From NCBI GenBank assembly GCA_024409185.1, contig JAKSUD010000004.1, positions 1 to 16,462 of the forward strand: a stretch of 16,462 bases of DNA, in the 5' to 3' direction. The notes beneath the pieces were generated by a model. That model saw only the letters and a list, made by a program, of their open reading frames with translations, had not been told where the DNA came from and made no database searches. Source of the DNA: an archaeon (GTDB lineage Archaea > Methanobacteriota > Methanobacteria > Methanobacteriales > Methanobacteriaceae). Both the position numbers and the translations under genes were made by a program. Position 1 is the first letter of the stretch; every line of letters starts with the position of its first letter. Below are positions 1-16,462 of the stretch, piece by piece.

Positions 1-262
1 CAAATTATATTTATTTATTATAGTAAATCTAAACACAAAATAAGAGTATTATTAATTTCTAAAATGATATTTATTAAGGACAACTAAAAATATAAAATAT
101 AAAAAATGGAAAATTAAAAAAGTATATATAAAAAGAGGAATATATTAAGGTGGAATATCAAAAAATATTTTCATTTTTTTATTACGTTGTTTTACTAGTT
201 CACTCTAAATTTAATAATAATTAATATATTTATAATTAATAATTTTGCTCCTTTTTCCAATT
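1..262 (-). terminator. Downstream flank / presumed 3' untranslated region
   Basis: The 262 bases after the stop codon are non-coding and very AT-rich. On the coding strand AATAAA occurs at 183-178, about 80 bases after the stop, and again at 19-14. Either could be a polyadenylation signal, but this hexamer is expected often in such sequence. I see no other gene or RNA here. Confidence 0.25.
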
Positions 263-3200
263 TTACTCTTTTGTGCAACTCTTTCTACAAATTGAATCAC
301 TACATAAATCAGCTCCATGACCACATGATGTTTTGTCTGCACAGCTTGGATTATCATGAGCACATTCAAGATTTGCACATAGATAACCTAATTCACCATC
401 ACATTTTGGTAATGTAGTACATTCTATTTCATTCTTTACACATGTACCATCTGGGCAAGCTTTATATAAAGGATTTTTGCATGCATAAGTAGAAGGACAA
501 AGGTCATTTGAAACTTTACATTGTTGGTTAATACATCTTATAGAATCAGCTGGGCATGGATTTGGTGGTACATAACAATCATAATATGAGTCTCTACAAC
601 TTAAATCTGCACATAAAACTTTACCCATTGGGCAAACTAATTGATTTGGATCATGTTCATCTGGTGTTCTGCAAATACCATCTACGAAAACTATATATGT
701 TTGTACAAATGTATCTTTTGAACAAGTTTTGTTTGTTGTAATTACTTCTGGACACATATCACCTTTTCTTTCTTCTGGAACACAATAATGTTGCCAACCG
801 CATCTATAGAAACCTGGTGGACAGTCGCAATCTTTTTGAGATTCTACACATTTTGTTTCACCACCAACTAGACAACTAAATGGTTTATCTCTTGTACATG
901 GTTCTGGGATTTCATAACAATCAGAAATCTTTTCTACACATTTTCCTGAATCTTGACATTTTATACTCTTTTCTCCAAAGCATGGTTCTGTCTCTAAGTT
1001 AATATGTACATCATCTCCAAATCTTTCACCTCTAAGATATACTGTTATATAATAATCACCTTCTAATTTAGGAATAAAGTTAACATTATATGAACCGTCA
1101 TTATTATCTACAATAGTTGTTTCTAATTTAGTTTGTCCTTGTTTCAAAAGCAATAATCTTCCATTAGAAGTGAAATCATCTCCACCATGAGTTATACGAT
1201 TACCCCATTGATCATAGCAAATAACTATGAATGTAGCTGGTTTATTAATACTTACATTAACTAATGGAGATTCATCAATTTCAGTCTTATTTTCAGATGT
1301 ACAATAAGGTTTAGGACCGGATATATTTTGTTCATTGTCAAATATTGATAATGGATGTTCATCAAACATAAAGTATGGTTCAAATTGTCCAGCTTGGAAA
1401 ATTTGAAGAATAACTCTTGTTCCATTTGTTAAATCATAAGGTACAAATCTAAATGGAACTGGAGTACCAGTTGTAGTATTAATTGTTGCTTCAATGTGAT
1501 CTTCAAAGTCATCTACAAATTCGGTATTATTGTAATCATCTACTGCTATAAAGTCGATTATGAATTTACCAGGTTCAGCAGTAACTTCATATTCTTTCCA
1601 TTGAATTTGATCAGGTGTAATAGGTCTTGTTCTGCATATTTGATTGAATTGTTGAATCTTTTTGCCATCAGCATAAATATTTATGGTATAATTACCTTTT
1701 TTGGTGTATTTATCTTTATCTGAAGTTATTATTTGATATTCATTTTGACAGTCTAATAATGGATTTTCGGTCTTTTTAACAGTATATTCTTTTTTAGCAT
1801 TAGGAGCAGTTTCAATTGGACCAATAACTTCAACTTTTAATTTATCACCGTAGTCTACTTTTTCAATACAATTATTACCAATATCATAAAGGTAGAATTT
1901 CATATCTAATATATCTTCTACCATAATTTCTCTACTATTTTTAGAGGAAATTTCTGTTCTTTGATAATCAATTTCTCTCTTTAAGGTTACTTTAATATCT
2001 TGGGTAAATAATCTTCTGCTTCCATTTTCATCTTCATATAAGATATTGATACTTCTATCAACTGGTGGATAATTAGGATTGATAACTATCTTATAAACTT
2101 CTCCTTTTTCTAAAGTTATTTTGCATGAGCTAGTAATATCCTTATTAAAGTCTAATACTCTGAAGTTATCAGTATAATCTGGTCTGTTTTTAATTACATT
2201 ACCAAATTGATCTTTTATTTTAAATTCTACAACATTAGAAGTTTCAGGTTCAATTAATTCTTTAAGTGGAGTTACTAATTCAATAGAAGTTACTTGTGGA
2301 TCAGAAATAACATTATATTTAACAACACCTATTTTTTCAGTTTTTTTAGTTTCATCATCATAATAACTGACAGTCATATTATTCTTTCCACTCTTTTCTG
2401 AAGTAACAGAAATACCATAGAACCCATTATTTTCATTAGTTTTCTTAACTTCATATTTGAATGTTGGATCTTCATCATCTATTTCGACAATAATGTTTTC
2501 TGGATTAATGTCTTTATTATATAGTTTTCCTTCTTTAGTTCTTAATTCTACATTTACTGTTTCATATTCTCCTGCTTTGATATTAAGATTTTCTGGACCA
2601 ACGATACTCTTTGAAACATCAACATCACCATTACCATATTTTTTATCATCTTTACCAGTTACAATATTAACTGGATAAGTGAATGTTTCATCTTCTTCTT
2701 TGGTGTCAACATCAAATGTGAATTTATATTTACCACTGACTAAATCAGAATAAATATCCATAAGTGTTTCATTACCAGCGAAATCTAATTTAATTTCACT
2801 TTTACCTGGAATAGGTTCTAATCTTATAGTTTCCATTTCATTACCTTCTAATCTAGCATTAATAACTTTAACATCATCTGGAATATCATCTATTGGATTA
2901 CCATATTCATCATAGAATTTAACACTCATTTCTGGTATTTCAGTTGTAGAAATAGTAAAGGTTTCATTTTGCTTGTATTTTTTCAATTCTGAACTACCTT
3001 TTTTACCATATACAATTAATTCAAGATTCTTAAGATCTGGAGAGCCTGGTACAACAAGTATTGGTTTTTCTGGAGTTGGAATAATATCAGTTTTATTGTA
3101 TACTATTTCATAGGTAGTATATCCAGAAGGAGTTATTTTTTCTTCAGTAGTAATTACAGCACCACCATCTTCTCTAATTTCATCGATTTTAGTTTTATAT

Positions 3201-6200
3201 GTTTTTTTGTTTACATCTACGAATGTTATATTATATCCATTGATAACTTGTTTATCAGTGATTAAATTACCATATGTATCATATGAATAAATAACGAGTT
3301 GACCTTTATCACCAGCTTCAATATTATCTGATATTTCTCTAACAATAGTTTTTGAAGTATCTATTTTACTACCAGGTTTAACTTCAAATTTAGCATTATA
3401 AGGTAAATAATTCTTTCCAGATAAAGGATTCAAATTAGATGAGACAGTATAAGTACCAGCAATTGGAGTAAATGCTATATATTTTTCACTACCATCATTT
3501 TGAGGAATAAATGATAATTCTGTTTCTTTTCCATCAATAGTTACTTTAATTCCTATTACTTTTTGGTCAGCTGGAACTAAGTTACCATATTGATCATATG
3601 CTTTTATTTCGAAAGGATATTCATATTTATCAGCATCACCATCAAGCATTACGTGATTCTTTTCATCTTTAAAGTATTTAGATAATATTTCTGCAGTATA
3701 TATTGGACCAGGAGTAACAATCATTAATGGATGGAAGTTTTTAAGTTCTTCACCTTCAATAAATACTTTTAATGGGCATTGAATTAATTCAGGGAAAGTA
3801 GTTGGTTTTTCAGAAGTTACAGTTACTATAAATTGACCTTTTACTCCACTATGTTCTACTTTATATTTAAATGTTTTATCATCTTTTCTACATGATTCTA
3901 CAGTTATTTTTGAATTTTCCCAAGCAGATGAACGTAAGTTATCATTTGTTCTTAATTCAAGATGCATTTCACCAGAATCACCGGCTTCAAATACTATACT
4001 AGCTTCATTAATAATTGTTTTTTGTCTTGCTATTTCAGTGTTTTCTTCAGTTTGAGTAATTTTAGCGATAGTGACATTTTTCTTGATTGTACCATCATTG
4101 TTCTTAATGATTACATCATAGGTACCTGGTGGGAGTTCAGTATATTTATCATCAGTTACTAATTCTACTGTTGAACCTTCTTCACCTGGAATAACTCTTG
4201 TTACAAGTTCATATTTAACTTCAGGATTAGTTTGGGAAACTAATTCTGCTTTCAAATCTCCGAATTTTGTACCTGGTGGGAAATTAACAACTCTATTACC
4301 AAATTGATCTCTTGGTTCTATTTTATAAATAGCTCTAACGTTATAGTTGTTTTGAACATCACCTTCTTTTAATGGTACAAATTCATTGGAAGTTGGAACA
4401 TAAACAGAAATTTCAGAATTTTTGAAGTCTGGAATTTGTTCAACTTTAACATCAACAACGCATGATTTTCCGCATGAAAGTGGTTCTTCTTCATAGCTTC
4501 CATAAATATAATTCATTTCTGGATTAGTGAAATTAGCTTTATATACTAATACATATTTATCTCCTCTTTTTTCAATAGCATGATATGGAATGACTTCTTT
4601 TTTATAGTCTTTAATATAATAAATTTCTGGTGGGATTTCAATAGTTGTATTTTTAGGATTAATATAATTACCATATTGATCACGTAGTAAAACAGTAATA
4701 TTTACATCTTTTCCTACAGTAACATTTTGATTTTCTACTTCAATTATAGTTTTTTCTGATCTTATTTCACCTGGTATGAATGTGATTTTGAATTCATCTT
4801 TTGGATACTTTTTGTTTTTAATAATGCATGTAATTGCAGTCTTTGAAGTTAAGGTTAAAAGAACATCTCCAGTTGCTCTGGTAGTTACTTTTAATACACA
4901 GCTTTCATCTGAGTCTACTCCGTCTTGTTTGATTACTTCATAAGTAGTTTCATCTATTGGAATATCAGCTGGGTTAGCTTTATTTCCATATATGTCATTA
5001 AATTGTTGTACTATGTAATAAGTTTTATCTACACTAATATAATCTACAAGCTTGTTAATTGGTTCATCATATATAGTTTTTGTTATTGGTTTTTCTGGGG
5101 TTGTTGGTTTTACAATTAATTTAATTGTTTTACTTTCCTTACATTTAAGTTCTATTTCTTTTGTTATTTCTGATTCTGATGGAGATTGAACTTTACATCT
5201 AATAACAGTATAAGTAATTTTTGAACTTGAAGGTATTGTTACTATATATTTTGAACTAGAAGATCCTGAAGGTCTCCATAAATGTTGTTCAGTATTTGCA
5301 TCTATTGATTTAGCTACTACGGTACCAGCCCAATTTCCACCTGGCATATTAACATGTGCATATGGTGCAATTAATAAACCTTTGAATTGTGAATTGAATG
5401 TTCCTTTGATTGTTCCATATCCTAAATAGACATATATTAATTTATCACTAAGATAATTAATTTGACTATCACCATTGTATGCATGATAAGGATCTTTATT
5501 AAAGTATTGCTCAAGTTCCCATTCGTTTTTGATTTCATGGGCTAACCCTTTTTCTACTAATCTTTTTGCAACAGCAACCCAATAATTAGTCATATCTGTA
5601 GCTGAGTCATAAAGTTTTTTCTTTCTAGCGCTGAATACTCCATTTCCTCTTCCGGAAGTACCATCGACACCGGAAGAACTACCTTTTACATAGGATTGAG
5701 TTTGTATAACTACAACTGAATTATCTCTGGTGTCATCAATACCTCCTCCACCGAGAATATCTCCATTTACACATACTGATCCTCTAGTATGACCATAACA
5801 ACCCAAATTACCGTCTAAAGTAATAAAGTTAAATTCGAAAACATTATTCCAATTACAAGTAATAGATTTTAATCCACTAGTTATTGAAGAATCAACAAAT
5901 GTTCCTCCAGTTTTTTCTTCAGTTATAATATTTTCACCATATCCTTTACTTTTTGCGTAATTAACAGCTTCAGTTCTACTATAATAGACAGTTGTTTCTC
6001 CTTGTGTCTTTGCTTCATTTTTAATTATATCCTTTAATTCATATCCTTGTTGAGTTGCCCAACTTCTTCCTTGAGATTCACTATCAAATAATTTTGGATC
6101 TTCACATAAAACATTGTTTTTACATCTAGTAACTTTATATTTAGCTCCATAACCATCTACGGTGACTTTCCATATGACTGTAGCTTTTTTCTCAGTTCTT

Positions 6201-9200
6201 ATTGGTGCCCAAGCATGTGCTTCTGCATCAGAATCTATTGATTTAGCAACAATTGAGCCAGACCAATTGCAAGCAGGAACGACAACTTTAGCTTTTGGTG
6301 CAATTAAAATTCCTTTAAAGCTGACTTCATTAGGAATATATAAAGTTGCTGTACCAGTATATACAAATATTAAGTTATCTTCAATTTTTCTAATTGCTGA
6401 ATCAGAACCTTTTGCAGTATAAGGATTCTTTCTAATATATGATAAAAGAGAATTAGCATCTTTAACTTGAATTCCAATTTGTTTACTAATTAATAAGTTA
6501 GCTACATTATTCCAATAATTAGTGATAGTAGATGTTGAGTCTGTTAGTTTTTGTTTTCTATCCATAAACATACCAATTCCTCTACCCCAGGAATAATCTG
6601 CATCAGTAGAAGTACCTTTAACATAGGAAGTTGTTTGTGCAACAACTAAATTGTTATCTCTAGTATCATCGATACCAGCAGCTCCACCATAAATATTTCC
6701 ATTTACATAAACTGATCCTCTTGTATGAGTACCTAATTTTAGATCACCATCTAAAGTGACATAATTATATTCATTCAAATTATTCCAATTAACAGTTACT
6801 CCATTAGTATTTAGTTGTGTTATTTCAGAAAGTGCATAGTTTGCTATAGTTTCTGTTTCTATTTCAGATACATCTGTATTATATTTTTTAGCAAATTCTA
6901 CTGCTTTTTCACGTGTATCAAATTGATAGGTTCCTGAGTCTTGACCTTTAATTATTTCAACATCTCCTTTTATAATATATCCTATATCATTAGCCCAACT
7001 AAAGGCTTCATTATATGAGCTAAATGTTTTTGGTTCATCACATACTATATTGGATTTTATTGTAGTACAAATTCTATTTGCTGTATAACTTCTATCAACT
7101 CTTGTAATACAATAAGTATAAACGTCTTCTTCTCTCCATACAGTTTGTTCTTGTCCACCAACATTTACATCTATTTTATTTCTTGGAGCCCAAGGATGTG
7201 CTTCACCATTAGATTCTATTGATTTAGCAACAATTGTACCACACCAATTACACCAAGGAACATAAACATGTGCATTTGGAGCAAATAAAACACCTTGGAA
7301 GCTATACCAATTAGATATATCAAAGTTATCAGTACCTAAATAGACATATACTAAAGAGTCATCAATAGATCTTATGGCTGAATCAGAACCTTCAGCTTGA
7401 TATTTATGATATTGCATATATTTATCTCTGAGTTCATCTGAATTTCTAACTTGTTTAGCTAAACCTCTATCCAATAATTGTTGAATAACAGTTGACCAAT
7501 AATTCTTAATATCATTTGTTGAATCTTGTAATTTTTTTTTTCTATTTTTGAATATTGTAAGACCATTTCTTCCAGATGTACCATCAACTTCATTAGATGT
7601 ACCTTTTACATAGGAAGTAGTTTGTATAGGTATTCCATGATCATAGGTATCATCAATACCAGCTCCTCCTCCATAAATATTTCCATTTACATAAACGGAT
7701 CCTCTTGTATGAGTACCTAATTTTAGATCACCATCAATAGTAATATAATTATACTCATGTAAATTAGCCCATCCAACTGATATTTCTTTTACAACACCTT
7801 CAGTAATTGTTTTATCTTCAAATTTTCTAACACCATTCTTTTTTTGTTGTATTAAACCTCTATCATATCCATTCTTTGAGGCCCATGAAACTGCATCTTG
7901 ATTTGTATCGAAGCATATATCGGAACCTTGGGTTTCTTTAGTTTCTATTTGACCATCTAATACACATGGTTGTTGAACTGCCCAATTATAAGCCTCATTA
8001 TATGTCTTAAATGTTTCAGTTTCTTTATTTTTTTCTTCAATATTACTTTCCTTTAATTCATTTTTAACAGTTTGTGTTGTCTTTTTGATAGTTGATGTTT
8101 CGACTTTGACATATATTAAGTTATCTTCTCTTGCTTTACTGCATTTAACTTTAATATTATAGATTCCTGGAATATTAGATCTTTCAATTCTATGACTACA
8201 AGAATCAGCATCTTTTGAAAATTTAATATCAACAACACTATCAACATTATCTAACCAACCATTTTTACGATTACCATTATCATCTTTAAGCTCCATTTTA
8301 ATAATTTTTTCTACACCTGCAACTAATGTCAAAGTAGTTGGTGAGAATTCTGTTTTACATAAACTCATTTCACCTGAAGAACCATCTACTCCATCATTTA
8401 CTATAATTGAATAATCAACTTTAACTCCTCCAAAGTCTAAGGTTAAAGCTCTTAAACCATTAGTAGTAGTATACCATTTATCTACTTGATCTGGGCATAC
8501 TGTTATAACTTTTGTATTTAGTTTATTAGTAGCACATAATTTAATATCTACACCTTCAATATTATAAGTGAAATCTACATTTCTGACTGTATCTGTATGA
8601 GTAATAATATTACCATAACGGTCCTTGAAAACAACCTCAAATTCAGGAACGGAACCAGCTTTAACATAGACAGGTTTACCAGAAATTTCTTCTTCAGTGT
8701 TTAGATATCTAACCTCTGTTTTAGTAAAATCTATTTCACCTTCTTTAACATAGAAACGACATGATTCACAGAAAACATCCATATTTTTATATAGTACACG
8801 ATAAAATAGATTTCCTGCAGTTTCTACGTAATAGATACATTCAATTATGCTATATTCATCTTGATAAACTATAGTACATTTATCTGATATATCTAATCCT
8901 TTTTCAGTAGGTCTTTTATTTTCATCATCAGGAGTTTCATAAGTGACTTTGAAATCTTTGAGAGTATTACTATCTAAATTATCTACAGGGTTTCCATATA
9001 CATCTTTTGGATAAATATCTAGTACATAATAGTCTCCAATATTAGTTGATCTACCATTTCTTACTTCAGCAGTTGTTCTATATGCAGAAATTGGACCACT
9101 TAAAAGCTTATATTTTATTTCTTCTTGTTTTCCTTCATTGTCGAAATATTTGGAAGTTACTGTTACTGTTGTACTTTTCATTGATTGATATTCTATATAA

Positions 9201-12200
9201 ATATAGTCATTGTCAGCATAAACATATGGATAAAGTTTTTCTCCATCACTATTTGTTGCATTAGTAAGCTCTACTAATTGAATAGTATTTACTTGATTAT
9301 TTTGAGTAGTCCATTGATTACCATATTTGTCAGTAGCAGTAAATTTAAGAGTTGGTGGTTCTAAAACAGTTCCATCTTTTGGTTGAGTTACTAAATTTAA
9401 TTTTCCAACTTCTCCGCATCTAATATATAAATGTATAGGATCAATAACTTTATAATTTCCATATTGAATATTTACTATGTTAGGAGTGTCCATTGATACT
9501 TTATTTTGAGTAATAGAAATAATAACTTGACCTTTTTCTTTTCCTAAGTATGCGATTGCTTTGAATTGTGTACTAGGTAGATTGAGTTTATTTGAGAAAA
9601 TAAAGTCATTAAGACTAGGAACGTTATTCCATCTAAGACCATCACTTGCTCTGAATTCTAAAGTAATGTTAATAGGTACACCAGCAGTTCCATATATTAC
9701 TGTGTCACTAAGAGTTGTTTTAGATATATCAATTTTAGAAGAACTAGAGTATTGTTTAGTTACAGAATCTCCGAATAAATTCAAAATATATGTTCTTTCT
9801 TCTCCATCAACATTTAAGACTAAATTATATTTACCAGCCTTTAATGATGTAAAGTCTCTTTTGTCTTTATCTTGGAAGTCTATAGTGACATAATTATCTG
9901 ATTTTGTGACAACCAAATCTCTCTTGGATTCTTGGTCTTGAGTTAATTTACAAGTTATTTTAATATTTTTATCATAATTTTTAATTTGTTCTCCTTTTTC
10001 AGTAGCTAAATAGTATCTAAATGAAATAGCTCCTTTAGTATTATCTATATTATTTTGTTTATTAGGAGATAAAGTATATTCTTCTTTTCCTCTTACGAAA
10101 GTTAAAACATTACTATCTATTGCATATTTTTGGTTTGAAATAATAAGTTTATTACTTCCATCTGGTGTTAATTTTTGTCCATTATAAGTAGCTTCAACTA
10201 CATAGCTTCCAGTAGAAGGATACATTGCTTTATATACTAATTGATTTTCGACTGTAGTATCATATTCATAATTAACTTTTTCGGTTCCTTTAATACCTGA
10301 AACAACAATTTGTTTTCTAATATTTTTTATTTGGTCTTCATCTTTAATTTCAACACTATATCTATCTCTAAGAGCTATTAAGACATAAGAAGTTTGTTCA
10401 ATTAGCATTTCATTTATATTTAAATAATAGTATGAGTTTTCTGCTACAGGTTTTCCTGGTAGTCTCTTATAAGCAAATGTAGCTCTTGAACCTCTGCAAA
10501 TTACAGTCCATGAATGTTCACCAATAGCTTCATAAATTTTTTCTTTGACTGTATATACTCCATTACTATTAGTAATAGTATATTTAGATTCATCATTTCC
10601 ATATCCACTAGAGTAAATATAAGCTTCAACTTTGCTTAATGGTAAATCGTTAAGATAATTTCCAAATTGATCTTTAAGTTTAAATGAGAATTGAATATTT
10701 TCATCATTTGTTGGATTAGTTTTTAATACATATCTTCCTAAAGTTTCATCATATTTTTCTGGATTTTGTACTTCAATAGTATAAGCTGGTGCTGCTTTAA
10801 CATGAATTGATAATTTTTGATTAATCTTTGTACCATTAAATGAAACATAGAATGAATTTTCAGCTTTTTGAGTGCAAGAAATTTGAATATAATATTGACC
10901 TGGTAATGAAGCTTGAAGTACATTATAATCACAATAATCAGGTTCAGTGAAATCTAATTTAATATCATCTTTAAAGTCAGGATACCAAGAATTTTTACGA
11001 AGACCATCTACAGCACGTAATTCCATTAATACAATAAGTTTTTCTCCTGCAACTAAGTCAAATTCTGATGGATTGAAGTAAGTTTTAGATAAATCTAATG
11101 CAGCTGAAGAACCACTACCACTATTATTTGTGATAAGTAATTTAGTTTCTACTTTATCACTTCCTTTGTAAACAGTAATTGTATATTCTTTGTTATTTAA
11201 ATATAAGAATTTATTGTAATTATCATCACCATTTGGTTGGCAAACAGTTATAGTTTTTTTACCATCAACATCATATACACATAGTTTTACATCTGTTCCT
11301 TCTAATTTAGCTTCAACTTCATAGCTTTCTATTTCTTCATTATTATCAATTTTATTATTATAATCGTCATATAATTCCATTTCAAATGTTGGAATTCCTG
11401 TAGTATAGTAAGGATTAGTATTGTAAATTTGAGTTTTTTTGAAACTAATTTCTCCTGGTTTTATGTTGGTAGTACAAGAAGTACATTCAATATTTTTTTT
11501 ACCGAATTTTACATTGAAAGTAACAGGTCCGGCAGTAATAACTTTTGATTTACAGTCGAAACTATATCTGTCATCGGCTAATTTGCAATCTTTAGTAATA
11601 TCTATTTCTTCTGAAGTAGGTGTTTTATAATAGATTCTAAAGTTTTCCATGTCTTCATCAGTTACTGCAACTTTATTTGAATAAGGATCTCTGGCATCTA
11701 CTCTTATTGTATATTCACTTCCTGCTGTTTGTCCAGTTTTTTCTATTATTTTTGCGAATGTTTTATCTGGATCTATATTACCTCCATTAATTGTAAGAGT
11801 ATATTTTTCTTTGAAATATGGAGAGGTTACATCAACTTTAGTTGGTGAAGTGGCTTTATATTGAACATATAAATATTTTCCATCAGATACCCAATTATCT
11901 GGATATATATATACATCATTTTGAGGTTCTCCTAATACGAGTCCATTTAAGTATTCTTTTTTCCATATGGATGGATCGAATAAATCAGTGTAAAGATTGC
12001 CATATTTATCATAAGGAATGAATTGAAGATAAGGTAAATTATCTACTGTTCCTTCTAAGACTTTTTTATTTAATTCTAATTTACCTAATTCTCCGCATTT
12101 AACAGTTAATGCTACTTTAGTTGGAATTTCTTTTTTATCATAATAAATTGTAATGATATTTTCTTGACCTTTTTCAGTTACTTTGTAAGGAGTCATATAA

Positions 12201-15200
12201 ATTAAGAATTGACCTGGTACAGTACCTTTTTCAGCATTGAACTTTAAGTCTTTTTCTGTTAATCCAAGACTATTTTTATAAGTGAATTTAGACGGATCAC
12301 CATCATTATTCCATCTTAAATTATCGGCTGCTCTAAAGTCTAATGTAATTGTATAAGTTAAACCGGCAATAGCATCAAGACGTGATAAACCAAGGTCTGT
12401 TTTGTCTATATCATAATCATCTGGAGAAAATTCATTACTTTCTTCTCCACCAGTTAAATATACTTGATTTTTAATAGTTTTTGGACCTACTTTATATTCA
12501 AATGTATAATAACCTTTTTTAGCTTTTGAGAATTTATCTGCCAATTTGTCATCGAATTTGCAAGTAATAAAGCTATCTTCTTTTGTTACATCTAGTACTA
12601 TTTTTTCTCCATCAATATCAAATACACATTTGAAATCGATACTTTTATCATATTTAGTTACTACATCTCCATCTGAGTTGATTAAAGTATAGTTGAAAAT
12701 TGGAGTTGTGATTGTATTGTCTACTTTAAATTGGGAACCTGGTATTAATTCAGTAGTTTTATCTGTGGTTACATACATTTTGCTTTTTTCATCTGAAATA
12801 TAATCTTGTTTTATATTAATTGTAGTTTCATCTTCACTTGGTATATCTTTATCATTATAAGTTACTACAACTTTATATTCTCCTTCGTTATAGAATGGTT
12901 TTTTATATCTTATTTTACCATCTCCAGTAATTGTCTCATATTCTAATGGGATAGTTTTTTTATCACTTTTTGCTTCAACTTTTATTTTGTTGAGTGCTTC
13001 TTTTATTTTTTTTTCATCTGTTCCAATATTTGTTCCATTATCATCTTTTAAGATAACATCAACGTAACCAGTTTCATTGACATAAATATTTGGTGTGAGA
13101 ATTTCATATCTAGATTTATCTGTTGAGACATCTCCAGGAACTTTTTTATATTCGAAGTAATATTTACGATTGCAATCTTTAAGATTAATAACCCAAGTGA
13201 ATTTTCCAGTTGGTTGTTCAATTACATCATCGAAGGTATAAGTTTTTTTTGTTGTTGAATATTTAATAGTAAAATCACCTTCTTGTTTAGTTTCTTCACT
13301 TACTTCGGTATTAGTTAATTTATAGTCTGGTTGAGAGATTTCTTTGTGGTTTGCATCATATAATTTGAAATCGAAGTTAAGATTTTCTGGATTAGAATCG
13401 ATAAGAGTATAAGTGTTATCGTTGATTTTGAATAAATCACTGTTTACTGGTTCTAAATAGCAGGCTGCATTATTTACGGAAACAGTAATATCAATATCTT
13501 GTTTAAGTTTTTCATCATTTATATAGACACTAACTTTATTTCCGCTAGTTACATCTCCATAAATTGTATATGTACCTAAAATAGTTTCTGGGATAACAGT
13601 GAAATTACCTCCATTTTTTTCATCAACCATTACTTTAATTTTATCTTTTCCAATATCATAATTGTATAAGTATCCGTCTTCTGTAGTAAGTTCAATACTT
13701 AGGAAAGCAGTTGGGTCACCAGCTACAAGATCTTTGTTTAAAACTGTGACTTTTGTTTTACTAATATCAAGGTCATGGAAGCATGTAGTACGATCACCGA
13801 TTGTAAGAGGATTGGGGAAAACATAATTTATGGGAATTCTCTCTTCTTCATCATTGAAAGTAAGTACAATTTCATATGGGAAACTGGATTTTTTGAGAGT
13901 TTCATTCATATATATACCAAGATATTGTTTTCCATCTTTTTGAACTCTACTAATTGATAAATCTTGGAATTTGTAATCTGGGTCATGTGGTGAAGTCAAA
14001 ACGGCTTTTACTTTTTTTAAATCAAATGATTGAGGATATCCTCCTTTAGAGCTAGAAATTAAAGTTTTATGGTCTGATTCGGTCATATCAAATGCAGTGA
14101 CAAATCCTTTGTCTACACCTCTGAAGTTAAATTCTGCTTGACTATAAGGGACCCATTGTCCATTATTTGGATTATATACATATCCACCCTTTAAAGATTT
14201 TGGATATGGATAAGCAACGAATGAATAAATTGTACCTGCAACTTCTTCTCTTTGAGTTTCATTTTTTTTCTTTTTCATATATCCATGGAATGAATAATCT
14301 CCCATTGAATCAATTTCATATTTGCATGAGAAATAGTCTCCTTTTGGTACAGGTTCTAATTTAATAGTAGCAGCTTCTGGGGTTTTTCTTTCTATTTCAC
14401 AAGAAAATTCATAATCATAACTATCCATATCTTCGGCTTTTACTGGATTTTGTAAAGCATTTTTAAAGTAGCATCTATATTCAACAGTTTGTTTTTGATT
14501 TAATGCTGGAGTTGAATTATATGGAACAGAATTTTCTCCTACCATTTCACATATTGAAGAATGGAGATCAGGACCACTTTCAGTAACAATAACTTCGTAA
14601 GAACTATATTCTTTACCATCTATAGTAAGATTCATATATTTACCTGGGTTTATTTGGTAAGTTCCTGGTTTTGTTGCAACGAAGGTAAATTGGTAATGAT
14701 CTTGATATTTTTTCATAGAAACTCTTACTCCAGGATTAGCCAATTCTAATTTGCTTTTTTGAAGAATATAAGTTGAGTCATTTTCTAAGTCAATTATATT
14801 ACCATATTTATCGGTAATACTAAAGTCTAAAACAAATGAAACATTATTTTCTTTTATGGGGAAGTTTCCATCAGCTCCTTTTCCGTATTTAAGGATAATA
14901 CCATTTGTTTTTGTGTCATATTCTTGGTTTATTTCTCCAATTTTTCCATCATGTCCAATTAAGGTTACATAAGCTATGTCACCAGGAATAACTGTATAAT
15001 ATTTAGCTGAACCAAAACCTTTAGTTTCTTCCCAAAGACGTAATTTATAAGATCCAACTTTTGAGCAGGCATGTGTATTTACTTGTAAAGTGTAGTCATC
15101 TAAAACATAAAATTTAGCTGATTCATTAGCGGAACAATCAAATGAGGCACTAAGATTGTAATTCCAAATATTTAGTCCATAATAATGAGGAATCTTTTGT

Positions 15201-16057
15201 CCTTTACTATTGTAGAAAGTAAATCTATATTTGATTGGGGAATCAGTTTGATATGAATAGGTATCGAATGCTTCTCCTCTAACATAGAATTTACCATCTG
15301 TTTTTGTGAGGTCCATGTTATCTTCGCAAACGAAAGTTCCAGACAAGCTTAATTCTCTTCTGTTTCCATTCATATAGCCAGTAAAACCAACATAAATAAG
15401 GTCAGTACCAAATTTTTCTTTAAGGTCAACATCATAAGAGAAGAGGATATCAGAAGAACCAGAATAGACATTTAATTTTTTGTCTTCATAAACTACTCTG
15501 AAGTCCCAACTCATAGGTTTGCTAGGATCATATCTTTGATTAAGTAAATTTCCAGTTTTAATTGCAGAAGTATCATCTCCATCACAATCATTATCACAAT
15601 ATTTGAGAGAAAAGCCATTAGCTTCTTTATCTACTAAGTTTTTATTGAAATCGAATTCAATTACATAGCTTTTGGTAAATCCGTAATAACCAATATGTTC
15701 TCCTGAACCTTCACCAATAGTATTATTGGATTTAGATAAGACTATAGTAAATCCTTCAAAATTTCTTTCACCGGGCTCTTCTATTATTTCTACTGGATCC
15801 ATACTAGCCTTAAAATGTATTTCAAATCTTGGATCAATTCTCATTTTTCTTCTATACCATAGAGCTCCACTTCCTTCTCCAAAGTTTAAAGATAAAGGAA
15901 TTAGCCTTGCAGCTTTATAGGCACTAGCAGTTGTTTCATCGAGATAAGTTTTGATCATACCCGACGAGCATGTTTCATCAGCAAAGACTGATTGGAGTGA
16001 TAAAAGGAAGCAAGCTACAAAAAACATAAAAACTAAATTAGTTTTTTTATTTTTCAT
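263..16057 (-). CDS. Giant secreted multidomain surface/matrix protein (L-type lectin, filamin/Ig repeats, triple choice-of-anchor-A, Cys-rich tail)
   Basis: The frame is open for 5,264 codons from ATG at 16057-16055 to a TAA stop at 265-263. An in-frame TAA at 16069-16067, nine bases upstream, makes this the first possible Met, and a typical signal peptide follows at once. Order of parts: signal peptide 1-26, L-type lectin-like 32-244, filamin/Ig-like domains 248-2658, three choice-of-anchor-A-like units 2659-3640, filamin/Ig-like domains 3641-5025, Cys-rich modules 5026-5264. No hydrophobic segment is seen after the signal peptide, so the protein is predicted to be soluble and secreted, or retained on the surface by binding or disulfides. 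No intron is needed over 15.8 kb. Codon choice is AT-rich throughout (AGA for Arg, TTA for Leu, GGA/GGT for Gly). I know no named gene with this architecture. An adhesin or extracellular matrix role is an inference from lectin plus Ig-like stalk plus adhesin-type domains. Confidence 0.96.
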   Translation of the reverse strand: MKNKKTNLVFMFFVACFLLSLQSVFADETCSSGMIKTYLDETTASAYKAARLIPLSLNFGEGSGALWYRRKMRIDPRFEIHFKASMDPVEIIEEPGERNFEGFTIVLSKSNNTIGEGSGEHIGYYGFTKSYVIEFDFNKNLVDKEANGFSLKYCDNDCDGDDTSAIKTGNLLNQRYDPSKPMSWDFRVVYEDKKLNVYSGSSDILFSYDVDLKEKFGTDLIYVGFTGYMNGNRRELSLSGTFVCEDNMDLTKTDGKFYVRGEAFDTYSYQTDSPIKYRFTFYNSKGQKIPHYYGLNIWNYNLSASFDCSANESAKFYVLDDYTLQVNTHACSKVGSYKLRLWEETKGFGSAKYYTVIPGDIAYVTLIGHDGKIGEINQEYDTKTNGIILKYGKGADGNFPIKENNVSFVLDFSITDKYGNIIDLENDSTYILQKSKLELANPGVRVSMKKYQDHYQFTFVATKPGTYQINPGKYMNLTIDGKEYSSYEVIVTESGPDLHSSICEMVGENSVPYNSTPALNQKQTVEYRCYFKNALQNPVKAEDMDSYDYEFSCEIERKTPEAATIKLEPVPKGDYFSCKYEIDSMGDYSFHGYMKKKKNETQREEVAGTIYSFVAYPYPKSLKGGYVYNPNNGQWVPYSQAEFNFRGVDKGFVTAFDMTESDHKTLISSSKGGYPQSFDLKKVKAVLTSPHDPDYKFQDLSISRVQKDGKQYLGIYMNETLKKSSFPYEIVLTFNDEEERIPINYVFPNPLTIGDRTTCFHDLDISKTKVTVLNKDLVAGDPTAFLSIELTTEDGYLYNYDIGKDKIKVMVDEKNGGNFTVIPETILGTYTIYGDVTSGNKVSVYINDEKLKQDIDITVSVNNAACYLEPVNSDLFKINDNTYTLIDSNPENLNFDFKLYDANHKEISQPDYKLTNTEVSEETKQEGDFTIKYSTTKKTYTFDDVIEQPTGKFTWVINLKDCNRKYYFEYKKVPGDVSTDKSRYEILTPNIYVNETGYVDVILKDDNGTNIGTDEKKIKEALNKIKVEAKSDKKTIPLEYETITGDGKIRYKKPFYNEGEYKVVVTYNDKDIPSEDETTINIKQDYISDEKSKMYVTTDKTTELIPGSQFKVDNTITTPIFNYTLINSDGDVVTKYDKSIDFKCVFDIDGEKIVLDVTKEDSFITCKFDDKLADKFSKAKKGYYTFEYKVGPKTIKNQVYLTGGEESNEFSPDDYDIDKTDLGLSRLDAIAGLTYTITLDFRAADNLRWNNDGDPSKFTYKNSLGLTEKDLKFNAEKGTVPGQFLIYMTPYKVTEKGQENIITIYYDKKEIPTKVALTVKCGELGKLELNKKVLEGTVDNLPYLQFIPYDKYGNLYTDLFDPSIWKKEYLNGLVLGEPQNDVYIYPDNWVSDGKYLYVQYKATSPTKVDVTSPYFKEKYTLTINGGNIDPDKTFAKIIEKTGQTAGSEYTIRVDARDPYSNKVAVTDEDMENFRIYYKTPTSEEIDITKDCKLADDRYSFDCKSKVITAGPVTFNVKFGKKNIECTSCTTNIKPGEISFKKTQIYNTNPYYTTGIPTFEMELYDDYNNKIDNNEEIESYEVEAKLEGTDVKLCVYDVDGKKTITVCQPNGDDNYNKFLYLNNKEYTITVYKGSDKVETKLLITNNSGSGSSAALDLSKTYFNPSEFDLVAGEKLIVLMELRAVDGLRKNSWYPDFKDDIKLDFTEPDYCDYNVLQASLPGQYYIQISCTQKAENSFYVSFNGTKINQKLSIHVKAAPAYTIEVQNPEKYDETLGRYVLKTNPTNDENIQFSFKLKDQFGNYLNDLPLSKVEAYIYSSGYGNDESKYTITNSNGVYTVKEKIYEAIGEHSWTVICRGSRATFAYKRLPGKPVAENSYYYLNINEMLIEQTSYVLIALRDRYSVEIKDEDQIKNIRKQIVVSGIKGTEKVNYEYDTTVENQLVYKAMYPSTGSYVVEATYNGQKLTPDGSNKLIISNQKYAIDSNVLTFVRGKEEYTLSPNKQNNIDNTKGAISFRYYLATEKGEQIKNYDKNIKITCKLTQDQESKRDLVVTKSDNYVTIDFQDKDKRDFTSLKAGKYNLVLNVDGEERTYILNLFGDSVTKQYSSSSKIDISKTTLSDTVIYGTAGVPINITLEFRASDGLRWNNVPSLNDFIFSNKLNLPSTQFKAIAYLGKEKGQVIISITQNKVSMDTPNIVNIQYGNYKVIDPIHLYIRCGEVGKLNLVTQPKDGTVLEPPTLKFTATDKYGNQWTTQNNQVNTIQLVELTNATNSDGEKLYPYVYADNDYIYIEYQSMKSTTVTVTSKYFDNEGKQEEIKYKLLSGPISAYRTTAEVRNGRSTNIGDYYVLDIYPKDVYGNPVDNLDSNTLKDFKVTYETPDDENKRPTEKGLDISDKCTIVYQDEYSIIECIYYVETAGNLFYRVLYKNMDVFCESCRFYVKEGEIDFTKTEVRYLNTEEEISGKPVYVKAGSVPEFEVVFKDRYGNIITHTDTVRNVDFTYNIEGVDIKLCATNKLNTKVITVCPDQVDKWYTTTNGLRALTLDFGGVKVDYSIIVNDGVDGSSGEMSLCKTEFSPTTLTLVAGVEKIIKMELKDDNGNRKNGWLDNVDSVVDIKFSKDADSCSHRIERSNIPGIYNIKVKCSKAREDNLIYVKVETSTIKKTTQTVKNELKESNIEEKNKETETFKTYNEAYNWAVQQPCVLDGQIETKETQGSDICFDTNQDAVSWASKNGYDRGLIQQKKNGVRKFEDKTITEGVVKEISVGWANLHEYNYITIDGDLKLGTHTRGSVYVNGNIYGGGAGIDDTYDHGIPIQTTSYVKGTSNEVDGTSGRNGLTIFKNRKKKLQDSTNDIKNYWSTVIQQLLDRGLAKQVRNSDELRDKYMQYHKYQAEGSDSAIRSIDDSLVYVYLGTDNFDISNWYSFQGVLFAPNAHVYVPWCNWCGTIVAKSIESNGEAHPWAPRNKIDVNVGGQEQTVWREEDVYTYCITRVDRSYTANRICTTIKSNIVCDEPKTFSSYNEAFSWANDIGYIIKGDVEIIKGQDSGTYQFDTREKAVEFAKKYNTDVSEIETETIANYALSEITQLNTNGVTVNWNNLNEYNYVTLDGDLKLGTHTRGSVYVNGNIYGGAAGIDDTRDNNLVVAQTTSYVKGTSTDADYSWGRGIGMFMDRKQKLTDSTSTITNYWNNVANLLISKQIGIQVKDANSLLSYIRKNPYTAKGSDSAIRKIEDNLIFVYTGTATLYIPNEVSFKGILIAPKAKVVVPACNWSGSIVAKSIDSDAEAHAWAPIRTEKKATVIWKVTVDGYGAKYKVTRCKNNVLCEDPKLFDSESQGRSWATQQGYELKDIIKNEAKTQGETTVYYSRTEAVNYAKSKGYGENIITEEKTGGTFVDSSITSGLKSITCNWNNVFEFNFITLDGNLGCYGHTRGSVCVNGDILGGGGIDDTRDNSVVVIQTQSYVKGSSSGVDGTSGRGNGVFSARKKKLYDSATDMTNYWVAVAKRLVEKGLAHEIKNEWELEQYFNKDPYHAYNGDSQINYLSDKLIYVYLGYGTIKGTFNSQFKGLLIAPYAHVNMPGGNWAGTVVAKSIDANTEQHLWRPSGSSSSKYIVTIPSSSKITYTVIRCKVQSPSESEITKEIELKCKESKTIKLIVKPTTPEKPITKTIYDEPINKLVDYISVDKTYYIVQQFNDIYGNKANPADIPIDETTYEVIKQDGVDSDESCVLKVTTRATGDVLLTLTSKTAITCIIKNKKYPKDEFKITFIPGEIRSEKTIIEVENQNVTVGKDVNITVLLRDQYGNYINPKNTTIEIPPEIYYIKDYKKEVIPYHAIEKRGDKYVLVYKANFTNPEMNYIYGSYEEEPLSCGKSCVVDVKVEQIPDFKNSEISVYVPTSNEFVPLKEGDVQNNYNVRAIYKIEPRDQFGNRVVNFPPGTKFGDLKAELVSQTNPEVKYELVTRVIPGEEGSTVELVTDDKYTELPPGTYDVIIKNNDGTIKKNVTIAKITQTEENTEIARQKTIINEASIVFEAGDSGEMHLELRTNDNLRSSAWENSKITVESCRKDDKTFKYKVEHSGVKGQFIVTVTSEKPTTFPELIQCPLKVFIEGEELKNFHPLMIVTPGPIYTAEILSKYFKDEKNHVMLDGDADKYEYPFEIKAYDQYGNLVPADQKVIGIKVTIDGKETELSFIPQNDGSEKYIAFTPIAGTYTVSSNLNPLSGKNYLPYNAKFEVKPGSKIDTSKTIVREISDNIEAGDKGQLVIYSYDTYGNLITDKQVINGYNITFVDVNKKTYKTKIDEIREDGGAVITTEEKITPSGYTTYEIVYNKTDIIPTPEKPILVVPGSPDLKNLELIVYGKKGSSELKKYKQNETFTISTTEIPEMSVKFYDEYGNPIDDIPDDVKVINARLEGNEMETIRLEPIPGKSEIKLDFAGNETLMDIYSDLVSGKYKFTFDVDTKEEDETFTYPVNIVTGKDDKKYGNGDVDVSKSIVGPENLNIKAGEYETVNVELRTKEGKLYNKDINPENIIVEIDDEDPTFKYEVKKTNENNGFYGISVTSEKSGKNNMTVSYYDDETKKTEKIGVVKYNVISDPQVTSIELVTPLKELIEPETSNVVEFKIKDQFGNVIKNRPDYTDNFRVLDFNKDITSSCKITLEKGEVYKIVINPNYPPVDRSINILYEDENGSRRLFTQDIKVTLKREIDYQRTEISSKNSREIMVEDILDMKFYLYDIGNNCIEKVDYGDKLKVEVIGPIETAPNAKKEYTVKKTENPLLDCQNEYQIITSDKDKYTKKGNYTINIYADGKKIQQFNQICRTRPITPDQIQWKEYEVTAEPGKFIIDFIAVDDYNNTEFVDDFEDHIEATINTTTGTPVPFRFVPYDLTNGTRVILQIFQAGQFEPYFMFDEHPLSIFDNEQNISGPKPYCTSENKTEIDESPLVNVSINKPATFIVICYDQWGNRITHGGDDFTSNGRLLLLKQGQTKLETTIVDNNDGSYNVNFIPKLEGDYYITVYLRGERFGDDVHINLETEPCFGEKSIKCQDSGKCVEKISDCYEIPEPCTRDKPFSCLVGGETKCVESQKDCDCPPGFYRCGWQHYCVPEERKGDMCPEVITTNKTCSKDTFVQTYIVFVDGICRTPDEHDPNQLVCPMGKVLCADLSCRDSYYDCYVPPNPCPADSIRCINQQCKVSNDLCPSTYACKNPLYKACPDGTCVKNEIECTTLPKCDGELGYLCANLECAHDNPSCADKTSCGHGADLCSDSICRKSCTKE
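266..982 (-). other. Cys-rich C-terminal tail, eight four-cysteine modules (residues 5026-5264)
   Basis: The last 239 residues contain 34 cysteines. They fall into eight modules of the form C-x(6-8)-C-x(4-6)-C-x(5-8)-C, for example CPMGKVLCADLSCRDSYYDC and CPADSIRCINQQCKVSNDLC. Two further cysteines lie in a spacer (TCSKDTF ... DGICR) between the third and fourth modules. The pattern 'CP.g...C.dg.C.....C' suggests small disulfide-knotted modules like those of many secreted eukaryotic proteins. I cannot assign a named family. The protein ends SCTKE with no hydrophobic or GPI-type tail. Confidence 0.78.
983..2623 (-). repeat. Filamin/Ig-like quartet Q7 plus a final domain (residues 4479-5025)
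   Basis: The block opens VDVSKS with IKAGEYETVNVELRTKEG. The following domains start near VISDPQVTSIEL (with KDQFGNVI), near LKREIDYQRTEI and near ITPDQIQW. A fifth domain (about 4911-5025) is the clearest filamin repeat of the protein: ICYDQWGNRITHGGDDF, then NNDGSYNVNFIPKLEGDYYITV, matching the canonical 'D..GN...GGd.F' and 'DGtY.V.y.P...G.Y.i.V' features. It leads directly into the Cys-rich tail. Confidence 0.72.
2624..4033 (-). repeat. Filamin/Ig-like quartet Q6 (residues 4009-4478)
   Basis: The quartet opens IARQKTIINE with FEAGDSGEMHLELRTNDNLRSSAW spread over the first domain's start. The second domain begins near TPGPIYTAEIL and has YDQYGNLV. The third begins KPGSKIDTSKT with AGDKG and YDTYGNLI. 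The fourth begins PGSPDLKNLEL, has YDEYGNPI and ends LVSGKYKFTFDVD. The 'D.YGN' filamin turn is clear in three of the four domains. Confidence 0.7.
4034..5137 (-). repeat. Filamin/Ig-like quartet Q5, remaining three domains (residues 3641-4008)
   Basis: Three domains follow the cassette. The first contains FNDIYGNKANP, the second begins IPGEIRSEKTI with LRDQYGNYI and ends with SCGKSC, and the third begins IPDFKNSEISV with PRDQFGNRV. These match, in order, the second, third and fourth domain types of the other quartets, including the CxxC-like end of the third type. With the first domain at 2564-2658 they complete one quartet of about 463 residues once the cassette is left out. Confidence 0.68.
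5138..6088 (-). repeat. Cassette unit 3: EA..WA doublet + choice-of-anchor-A-like domain + linker (residues 3324-3640)
   Basis: The unit opens with FDSESQGRSWATQQGYE and a second element, YSRTEAVNYAKSKGY. The choice-of-anchor-A-like domain lies at 3390-3596. A Ser-rich spacer (SGSSSSKY), a strand ending YTVIRCK and a Glu/Ser/Lys-rich linker close the cassette before the filamin/Ig-like domains resume near residue 3641. It is the most diverged unit of the three. Confidence 0.78.
5270..5890 (-). other. Choice-of-anchor-A-like domain 3 (residues 3390-3596)
   Basis: The domain has FNFITLDGNL, then GHTRGSVCVNGDILGGG and GIDDTRDN. The C-terminal block reads FKGLLIAPYAHVNMP, then NWAGTVVAKSIDANTEQH. 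The Glu-x-His end is kept (EQH instead of EAH). The middle has RKKKLYDSATDMTNYW and GDSQINYLSDKLIYVYLG. Length is about 207 residues. Divergence from domains 1 and 2 is spread over the whole domain, which suggests an older duplication. Confidence 0.75.
6203..6835 (-). other. Choice-of-anchor-A-like domain 2 (residues 3075-3285)
   Basis: The domain has YNYVTLDGDL and the same THTRGSVYVNGNIYGG block as domain 1. The C-terminal block reads FKGILIAPKAKVVVP, then NWSGSIVAKSIDSDAEAH. The middle has RKQKLTDSTSTITNYW and GSDSAIRKIEDNLIFVYTG. Length is about 211 residues. It lacks the cysteines around NW that domain 1 has (WCNWC becomes ACNWS), so a disulfide there is not a general feature. Confidence 0.75.
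6687..6751 (-). repeat. 65-base near-identical direct repeat, copy 2 (cassette unit 2)
   Basis: This is the partner of 7671-7735, 984 bases away, with 64 of 65 bases identical. The corresponding part of unit 3 encodes a related but changed segment (GHTRGSVCVNGDILGG) and does not share the DNA identity. Confidence 0.9.
7181..7807 (-). other. Choice-of-anchor-A-like domain 1 (residues 2751-2959)
   Basis: Choice-of-anchor-A domains are known mainly from bacterial surface proteins. They share an N-terminal 'fN....gd......GrvavgGni' block and a C-terminal 'f.G.llAP.a.v......G.viaks..g.gE.H' block. Both are here: YNYITIDGDL then THTRGSVYVNGNIYGG near the start, and FQGVLFAPNAHVYVP, WCGTIVAKSIESNGEAH near the end. 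Length is about 209 residues. A helical, charged middle (KNRKKKLQDSTNDIKNYW) and GSDSAI..IDDSLVYVYLG also recur in the other copies. The family's function is unproven; surface adhesion is the usual guess. Assignment is from remembered family features, not from a search. Confidence 0.75.
7671..7735 (-). repeat. 65-base near-identical direct repeat, copy 1 (cassette unit 1)
   Basis: These 65 bases match 6687-6751 with one mismatch (G for T at 7697, within ACGGAT versus ACTGAT). They encode the identical stretch GDLKLGTHTRGSVYVNGNIYG within choice-of-anchor-A-like domains 1 and 2. The surrounding sequence of the two units is far less alike. Confidence 0.9.
8084..8368 (-). repeat. Filamin/Ig-like quartet Q5, first domain (residues 2564-2658)
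   Basis: This is a single A-type domain opening MSLCKTEF with LVAGVEK, leading to ELKDDNGNRKNGW, nearest to the first domain of Q3 (LRKNSW). It ends with KVETSTIKK and runs into a charged, low-complexity linker rich in Lys, Glu, Asn and Thr (2659-2682). The rest of this quartet resumes only after the choice-of-anchor cassette. Confidence 0.68.
8369..9733 (-). repeat. Filamin/Ig-like quartet Q4 (residues 2109-2563)
   Basis: This quartet opens with IDISKT and GTAG, leading to EFRASDGLRWNN. The second domain begins IRCGEVGKLNL with ATDKYGNQW. The third begins near SGPISAYRT with KDVYGNPV and ends with CESC. The fourth begins with KEGEIDFTKTEV, has KDRYGNII and a Cys pair (KLC ... ITVC). It is the best internal match to Q2. 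The Q2-to-Q4 anchor spacing is 894 residues, about two quartets. Confidence 0.7.
9734..11098 (-). repeat. Filamin/Ig-like quartet Q3 (residues 1654-2108)
   Basis: This quartet opens with LDLSKT and LVAGEK, leading to MELRAVDGLRKNSW. The second domain starts at AAPAYTIEV and has LKDQFGNYL, a clear filamin-type turn. The third begins LPGKPVAENSYYY. The fourth begins near KYAIDSNVL and ends SLKAGKYNLVLNVDGE, closely like the fourth domain of Q6 (LVSGKYKFTFDVD). It is followed by a short Ser linker. Confidence 0.7.
11099..12415 (-). repeat. Filamin/Ig-like quartet Q2 (residues 1215-1653)
   Basis: This quartet opens with YDIDKT and an AIAG segment leading to DFRAADNLRWNN. The second domain begins with VKCGELGKLEL and has YDKYGNLY. 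The third begins near GGNIDPDKT and ends with a CTSC pair. The fourth begins with KPGEISFKKTQI and contains a Cys pair (KLC ... ITVC). Domain by domain it matches Q4, with shared RWNN, CGE.GKL, CxxC and Cys-pair signatures, so Q2 and Q4 probably arose from one ancestral block. The fourth domain ends in a flexible Ser/Gly/Asn linker (NNSGSGSSAA). Confidence 0.7.
12416..13771 (-). repeat. Filamin/Ig-like quartet Q1 (residues 763-1214)
   Basis: This quartet opens with LDISKT and LVAGD. The first domain contains ELTTEDGYLYNYDI, which closely resembles the first domain of the last quartet (ELRTKEGKLYNKDI). The second domain begins after the NNAACYLEPV segment, the third at VPGDVSTDKS, and the fourth near DYISDEKSK, ending with KKGYYTFEYKVG. 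The domains look like filamin/ABP280-type Ig folds, each of about 110-115 residues, with the 'D..GN' turn partly degenerate. Confidence 0.65.
13772..15316 (-). repeat. Filamin/Ig-like quartet Q0 (residues 248-762), divergent
   Basis: Four beta-sandwich-type domains follow the lectin. The first opens with DLTKT (249-253), resembling the 'LDxSKT' opening of the later quartets. The second starts near IPGDI and carries ITDKYGN, a filamin-style 'D.YGN' turn. The third starts near SGPDL. The fourth contains NPNNGQWVPY. This block is the longest quartet (about 515 residues) and the most diverged, and it lacks the LELR/LR..W signature. Individual domain boundaries are approximate. Confidence 0.6.
15326..15964 (-). 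other. L-type (legume-like) lectin domain, residues about 32-244
   Basis: Seen in order: a first strand with FEIHFKAS (78-85); EGFTIVLS (101-108), matching the family's DGFAF-type strand with Glu in place of Asp; GYYGFTKSYVIEFDFNKN (123-140), matching the lectin core where the family carries a VEFDT..N metal-binding strand; WDFRVVYEDKKLNVY (184-198); and YVGFTGYMNG (222-231), matching the family's 'VGFSA.TG' strand. The stretch 151-163 has Cys154 and Cys158 inside an acidic loop (CDNDCDGDD), and Cys244 closes the domain. L-type lectins bind glycans in a Ca/Mn-dependent way. Whether this copy keeps sugar binding is uncertain because the usual Asp of the DG motif is Glu. Its place at the mature N-terminus suits a glycan-recognising tip. 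Confidence 0.8.
15980..16057 (-). other. Signal peptide (residues 1-26)
   Basis: The N-terminus has the three classic parts: a basic stretch (MKNKK), a hydrophobic core (residues 8-21, rich in F, L, V and M), and a small-residue cleavage site S-V-F-A before D27. Val at -3 and Ala at -1 fit the usual signal peptidase rule. It sends the protein into the secretory pathway. It also supports the chosen start codon, because the core begins only seven residues from this Met. Confidence 0.93.
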
Positions 16058-16462
16058 TAGCTTTTTTTATGATTTGTTTTTTCGTACCCCAATATATATC
16101 AAAAATCTAAATAATAATGAGTAAAAAATAATAATTTTGAAAAATTATTTTAATTTTTTTTTTCTATAGTAATTTATCAAATAATTATTTTTTCAATAAG
16201 ATTTCGAATCATAAAGCAATAAGAATTAAAGTATTGGTATTTTTGAAGAAACACTTGTTTTTAAAACTGAATTAATTAAAGTAATTATAAGTAAAAAACT
16301 TTTTTTATCATTTATTTTGGTATTTTCTTTAATAATATCAAATTATCCAAGAACTTTTTATCATAGAGTTTAATATTAGAAAAATTAAATAAGATAAATT
16401 TAATTGAATGAATTAAGCAAAATAAGTAAAATTAATTATTTTTAAAAAATTTTTATGTTATT
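16058..16462 (-). promoter_or_regulatory. Upstream flank / presumed promoter and 5' leader
   Basis: These 405 bases hold no credible coding frame. They are extremely AT-rich with homopolymer tracts, including ten T's at 16154-16163. A TATATAT stretch at 16093-16099 lies about 36-42 bases before the ATG and could be a TATA-like element, but such strings are common by chance here. No Shine-Dalgarno sequence precedes the ATG (the leader ends AAAAAAAGCTA), which fits a eukaryotic gene. Promoter function is assumed from position only. Confidence 0.3.

Follow-up and report, generated by a model that had tools for sequence, protein, structure and literature searches.

The window analysed here is a whole contig of 16,462 bases (C196; NCBI contig JAKSUD010000004.1) from a metagenome-assembled genome (MAG) of Methanobrevibacter, which comprises 1.22 Mb in 261 contigs, and nearly all of it is taken up by one giant gene. 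The contig sits in the Methanobrevibacter MAG but probably does not belong there. The explanation that we favour, and hold to be rather probable, is that the gene is that of a misbinned rumen eukaryote, most likely a litostome ciliate, and that its product is a filamin rod with a lectin head, which is secreted and acts in the manner of a fibrillar adhesin. The whole protein is unlike anything returned by the searches used, in that known domain classes stand in a new order, and no description of such a protein was found in the open-licence literature. An earlier reading of the same DNA, made from its letters and referred to below as the original prediction, had called the architecture unrecognized; this holds within the reach of the tools used, although the N-terminal part was found to belong to an unnamed family of 18 other proteins.

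A single giant gene

The gene is a real, intact open reading frame (ORF) of 5,264 codons (263..16057, minus strand), which runs from ATG to TAA with no internal stop, as the original prediction had stated without naming the strand. It occupies 96 % of the contig and is the sole gene there; the only other listed frame of at least 100 codons has 110, and the plus-strand reading of the gene region is crowded with stops. The GC content is 29 % in the gene and about 15 % in both flanks, namely 405 bases upstream (16058..16462; 14.6 %) and 262 bases downstream (1..262; 14.9 %). No Shine–Dalgarno-like 4-mer was found at −18 to −4 of the gene, no terminator-like hairpin in the downstream flank, no telomere array at either contig end and no tRNA or Rfam match at gathering score within the window.

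Both predicted ends of the protein were recovered. The predicted signal peptide (residues 1–26; 15980..16057, minus strand), judged by hydropathy, has its hydrophobicity peak at residue 8, and all the top-ranking 19-mers for hydrophobicity fall at residues 5–12 (best 2.35; eighth best 1.38). The Cys-rich tail (residues 5023–5264; 266..991, minus strand) is defined by its Cys count, with 34 Cys within the last 244 residues (5021–5264). The giant protein yielded no match to a wall-binding family and no membrane anchor. We infer that the protein is secreted, rod-shaped and adhesive.

A lectin-like head in an unnamed family

The use of residues 27–420 as a database query returned 18 other proteins with 39–49 % identity: 17 covered 84–100 % of the query at E <1e-79, and the remaining one matched 46 % of it at 3e-36. 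These homologues are colinear with the window protein along their whole shared extent, up to residue 1157, while P0012, P0014 and P0016 diverge early, at residues 476, 477 and 356, respectively. According to hydropathy, P0014 contains one transmembrane (TM)-like stretch, in addition to a lysine-rich tail, and P0016 contains four. Because these three proteins leave the shared part early, two of them with TM-like stretches, the lectin-like head seems to have been reused on different carriers, including membrane-anchored ones. P0014 and P0016 also have in common a Cys-containing stretch just before the membrane. The C-termini of P0007, P0009, P0011 and P0013 are short and unrelated at places where a relative reads on, which may reflect introns, frameshifts or assembly errors.

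The head itself (residues 27–250; 15308..15979, minus strand) is a probable L-type lectin-like domain, the fold being taken as probable mostly because of the order of its motifs, GFTIV, EFDF...D and GFTG, which resembles that of L-type lectins. The EFDF and GFTG motifs are invariant across the 18 rows of an alignment of the window protein with 17 homologues (A2), from which P0020 was omitted since it starts inside the lectin. Set against the metal-site pattern of concanavalin A, E-x-D-x3-N-x4-D, residues E134, D136 and D143 are invariant in the 18 rows, N140 is present in the window protein and 5 of the 17 others (G or D elsewhere), and the D that should follow is replaced by E in the window protein. 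The position that, with column equivalence judged by eye, corresponds to the sugar-binding Asp (before Gly) of classical L-type lectins reads EG in the window protein, EG, QG or KG in clade A and YG or YA in clade B.

For the L-type lectin of the original prediction there is a match to PF18483 (E 7e-4) across nearly the full domain, although its score of 19.9 bits falls below the cut-off of 78.3 and a PDB profile search with a second alignment (A3, the window protein and 9 of the 18 homologues) returned no lectin. Among ten trimmed family members, PF18483 was found weakly in one and PF00139 weakly in two others (best E 0.0097); no lectin family was detected at E ≤1 in the other 17 untrimmed rows of A2, so that only the window protein matches PF18483 and none matches PF00139. 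Among 199 relatives PF18483 gave three matches, none above the cut-off, and the E value of the window protein in that scan (5.8e-4) was no better than that of an unrelated archaeon with a partial match; the lectin score is therefore weak. A single-sequence model of the domain is too poor to serve as evidence (pLDDT 40), and hhalign comparisons with single sequences, one of them an archaeal lectin-like piece, and with the three-row cassette alignment were uninformative.

Two immunoglobulin/filamin-like arrays

The greater part of the protein consists of two arrays of immunoglobulin (Ig)/filamin-like domains, the first at residues 251–2669 (8051..15307, minus strand; 11 repeats by a self-trained profile, and self-BLAST) and the second at residues 3601–5022 (992..5257, minus strand; 10 repeats by the same profile, and PF00630). 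The filamin family PF00630 matches two stretches at 5e-16, with 59.8 bits against a cut-off of 26.9, the best lying at residues ~4930–5012, and the best PDB match of the filamin repeat, in sequence searches that covered the protein outside residues 1301–2600, is 1wlh (gelation factor). The original prediction of about 33 such domains is sustained as to the class and as to 21 repeats, which the self-trained profile detected in the protein and in none of 20 shuffles, whereas the other ~12 are estimated from gaps of fitting length. This profile was trained on the protein itself and is thus partly circular, and most repeats besides those matched by PF00630 depend on it alone.

Within the first array, self-BLAST revealed a super-repeat of ~892 residues (763–1767 versus 1654–2679, ~26–32 % identity) that is absent from the original prediction. 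It reflects the ancient duplication of a segment that comprised about eight Ig-like domains.

Three choice-of-anchor A cassettes

Between the arrays lie three tandem cassettes, mutually 44–52 % identical, each of which consists of a leader module and a choice-of-anchor A domain. Cassette 1 comprises residues 2670–2963 (7169..8050), cassette 2 residues 2995–3289 (6191..7075) and cassette 3 residues 3310–3600 (5258..6130), all on the minus strand; TIGR04215, PF20597 and repeat comparison support all three, and a structure model is available for the third. Both families score well above their cut-offs (TIGR04215, 5e-19, 69 bits versus 29; PF20597, 8e-21, 75.5 bits versus 23.8), which confirms the triple cassette that had been predicted. 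The module of ~70 residues that heads each cassette (within 5258..8050, minus strand), a further feature that the original prediction did not contain, shows by eye two similar halves of the form F..S/T...A..W/F-A...; no Pfam family scored above its cut-off in these modules (CorC_HlyC weakly, 19.8 versus 27 bits).

Cassette 3 was modelled with moderate confidence as a β-solenoid resembling ice-binding proteins, and no Pfam ice-binding family was found in the window protein at E ≤1. Viral contigs gave no match with the cassettes, the cassette profile, the lectin piece or the N-terminal profile, and nothing was found in plasmids. A protein database search with residues 2840–3720 returned nothing beyond the window protein itself, and the PDB contained no meaningful sequence match for the N-terminal piece, the lectin or the cassettes.

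Proposed organization and function

According to the explanation favoured here, a macronuclear contig of a rumen eukaryote would have been wrongly binned into the Methanobrevibacter MAG. Judging from its signal peptide, the product would be exported via the secretory pathway and would form a long rod, in which ~33 Ig/filamin-like domains (21 by the self-trained profile, the rest by length) would serve as the stalk and the probable L-type-lectin-like domain would occupy the N-terminal tip. The three mid-protein cassettes, whose family is established and whose solenoid fold comes from the moderate-confidence model, may provide further putative ligand-binding faces, and the Cys-rich C-terminal tail may hold the rod in a cyst wall, pellicle coat or matrix. 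The likely role would be that of an extracellular adhesive or structural fibre comparable to bacterial fibrillar adhesins, and the giant protein would belong to a family whose common head is placed on different carriers, some of them membrane-anchored. The secreted adhesin or matrix fibre with a sugar-binding tip that had been proposed originally therefore agrees with the findings as far as the rod is concerned; the sugar binding of the tip remains putative, in view of the sub-cut-off lectin score, the PDB profile search that found no lectin and the Glu or Tyr at the presumed Asp position.

Origin of the gene

The MAG, with estimates of 64 % for completeness and 0.06 for contamination, is that of a methanogen, since it encodes a protein with 81 % identity to one of Methanobrevibacter RUG11657, a member of a rumen genome series, and the gene content of contigs C240 and C2 fits by eye. 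The N-terminal family of the giant protein was found in 0 of 137 other genomes of the archaeal family, taken to be Methanobacteriaceae, the cassette region in none of the 18 other genus genomes and PF20597 in 0 of 59 relatives.

The codon usage of the gene differs from that of the MAG. The synonymous codon distance between the two is 0.105, while the maximum over 1,000 window-sized sets of MAG ORFs was 0.073; the codon counts were based on ORFs of at least 150 codons (107) or at least 300 codons (61) on 22 of 28 fetched non-window contigs, the remaining six (L011–L016, <3,000 bases) having been dropped as all N. Among the codons of the window gene TGC (36/98) and TTC (94/191) are high, TAC (40/345) and CAC (3/43) are low, and CAG (0/148) and GTG (0/371) are absent. 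In a published codon table of rumen protozoa (PMC7200989) TTC and TGC are likewise high and TAC and CAC low. The window gene lies at a distance of 0.065 from this table versus 0.105 from the MAG, scores +242 bits in favour of the protozoa table and is positive in 14 of 17 tiles, whereas 59 of the 61 MAG ORFs of at least 300 codons favour the MAG table. Together with the absence from the 137 archaeal genomes, this codon usage supports the original pointer to AT-rich protists.

The literature describes Muniziella, a gut litostome, as having the standard code, ~26 % GC, CCCCAAT telomeres and 0.62 introns per gene (PMC11316547), Entodinium caudatum as having 21.5 % GC and two-telomere contigs averaging 2.8 kb (PMC10978948), the single-gene chromosomes of Balantidium as having low-GC ends (PMC10978948) and the optimal codons of litostomes as all ending in A or T (PMC10384029). 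A one-gene contig with AT-rich ends fits a ciliate chromosome, and the TTC fraction of 0.49 in the window only just fits the preference for A/T-ending codons.

Several observations weigh against this assignment or are neutral to it. The contig, at 16.5 kb, is long compared with the chromosomes of ophryoscolecids (~1.5 kb) or Entodinium (mean 2.8 kb, with two telomeres), and the giant frame contains no introns, as opposed to 0.62 per gene in Muniziella. The telomere repeat CCCCAAT occurs as three scattered single copies, none of them at an end, and as many were found in 22 of 200 shuffles; the contig may be incomplete, which bears on the missing telomere. None of the 18 N-terminal homologues carries a name or taxon. 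The protozoa codon table represents one mixed metatranscriptome, and the comparison covered this table and that of the MAG. Individual MAG ORFs reach a codon distance of 0.284, so that the per-ORF distance does not separate and the test rests on the resampled sets. At adhesin loci elsewhere in Methanobrevibacter, 15 of 15 ORFs that reach 1,000 codons or more are also positive against the table of this MAG, being less AT-rich than it, although they are far from both tables (0.15–0.41 for protozoa, 0.19–0.46 for the MAG). Intergenic GC (15 % in the window, MAG median 15.6 %) provides no separation, and Shine–Dalgarno-like 4-mers, present at 77 of 535 random places, are missing in 36 of 93 MAG genes too. 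A search for another eukaryotic contig in the MAG with two families gave no match for PF00112 and one sub-cut-off match for PF00069, on C255, and a contamination estimate of 0.06 counts against misbinning. As for the solenoid, the model retained scored highest among five (68.5, against 45–57 for the rest), and Foldseek searches with it gave TM-scores <0.37 and no match at E ≤0.001. Given the unusual length, the lack of introns and telomere and the absence of a named homologue, a ciliate origin is a best guess, not a result.

The same kind of protein could come from another rumen eukaryote, such as an anaerobic fungus, a trichomonad-like flagellate or an amoeba, which we consider rather unlikely, though the strongest of the alternatives. 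All the evidence for a non-archaeal, eukaryote-like protein applies to it equally, and Neocallimastigomycota are likewise very AT-rich; on the other hand, the codon usage matches the rumen-protozoa metatranscriptome well, in the comparison of that table with the MAG's. That the gene was transferred from a eukaryote into the methanogen genome and is now resident there is the least likely of the explanations weighed, and very improbable: the binning alone speaks for it, while the codon usage is not adapted to the MAG and the gene was found in one genome only. As the contig holds no second gene, neighbours cannot be read for this question.

Two prokaryotic explanations appear about equally unlikely. 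A native, lineage-specific adhesin-like giant would be in keeping with the richness of Methanobrevibacter in giant Ig adhesins (Big_1 in all 19 genomes of the genus, with open frames of up to 4,836 codons), with a flank GC that fits the MAG and with the binning. Nevertheless, the 12 proteins matched by Big_1 in the same MAG do not include the giant protein, its best Big_1 score is 15.5 versus 34.9 bits (the nearest such family, Big_3_2, also remaining below cut-off at 20.7 versus 23.3), its codon usage falls outside the 1,000 resamples, its N-terminal family is missing from the 137 other genomes, and no β-helix, transglutaminase or pseudomurein-binding repeat was seen in the Pfam scan at E ≤1. 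Upstream-flank DNA matched all 19 genus genomes through short AT-rich stretches and is uninformative. A contaminant gene of an AT-rich bacterium, encoding a fibrillar adhesin with choice-of-anchor A domains, would agree with the place of TIGR04215 among the models that NCBI uses for naming bacterial and archaeal proteins, and with the bacterial design in which a stalk carries an adhesive domain (PMC9210967, PMC8286594). However, two short cassette patterns matched 55 stretches among 84,980 prokaryote species genomes, 0 of which were confirmed, and no sortase, secretion-system or S-layer family was detected by Pfam or NCBIfam at E ≤1. The lack of a Shine–Dalgarno-like 4-mer, the closeness of the filamin repeat to gelation factor and the TM-like stretch and lysine-rich tail of P0014 also argue against a bacterial source. 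A misbinned eukaryotic gene, probably from a litostome ciliate, remains the preferred explanation.

Elsewhere in the assembly, locus L052 (G000 C2) contains two ORFs of 417 and 357 codons with codon distances of 0.25 and 0.28, which may reflect expression bias or foreign origin, beside frames that by eye are hydrogenase-like, and L007 (G000 C1) contains frames that, likewise named by eye, resemble a type III restriction–modification system and a CRISPR–Cas operon.

Significance

Few surface molecules of rumen ciliates are known, and the means by which these organisms attach to prokaryotes, to feed particles and to one another are of practical interest with regard to methane formation. A family of lectin-headed giant proteins offers concrete candidates here. 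It is conceivable, although we would give it only a modest chance, that the genomes of rumen ciliates harbour a multigene family, so far undescribed, of extracellular proteins with lectin heads, including filamin-stalked rods with ice-binding-like solenoids and membrane-anchored forms, as a capture or attachment coat, possibly directed towards methanogens and plant fibres. If the eukaryotic origin is true, a 16 kb eukaryotic contig lies inside an archaeal species genome whose contamination is estimated at 0.06, and annotation could credit the archaeon with a giant ‘archaeal adhesin’ that it lacks. The fibrillar adhesins of bacteria would have a eukaryotic counterpart in the lectin-headed ciliate family, if such a family exists. 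The giant protein shows no wholly new principle but known classes newly ordered.

Comparison with known systems

The adhesin-like proteins of Methanobrevibacter (PMC11532034) are likewise giant and Ig-rich and occur in the same MAG and genus; their parts include β-helix, transglutaminase and pseudomurein-binding repeats, whereas the window protein has other Ig families and another codon usage, and neither a β-helix nor a pseudomurein-binding repeat was found in it. With L-type lectins (PF18483, PF00139; ERGIC-53, legume lectins) it shares the motif order given above, but its PF18483 score is below cut-off and the place of the sugar-binding Asp is taken by Glu, Gln, Lys or Tyr in the family. 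It resembles filamin and gelation factor in its PF00630 score and best PDB match and differs from them in being apparently secreted and in lacking any actin-binding family in the Pfam scan. Its cassettes exceed the curated cut-offs of choice-of-anchor A (TIGR04215) and pAdhesive_15 (PF20597), but three of them stand in tandem mid-protein, each with a leader of ~70 residues, inside a filamin-type rod. The cassettes are 9–14 % identical to DUF3494 ice-binding proteins, with no Pfam ice-binding match, and ice binding is unlikely because of the presumed gut habitat.

The closest functional parallel is provided by the bacterial fibrillar adhesins, in which an adhesive domain is borne on a long repeat stalk (PMC9210967, PMC8286594). 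In contrast to these, the window protein has a filamin-like stalk and an L-type-lectin-like head, no bacterial anchor or secretion family was found in it and its source is likely eukaryotic. Like them, it is very long, apparently secreted and equipped with adhesive-type domains on a repeat stalk, and its overall layout, in which a long stalk of Ig domains bears the head, additional solenoid faces and a Cys-rich end, would by analogy be that of a fibrillar adhesin.
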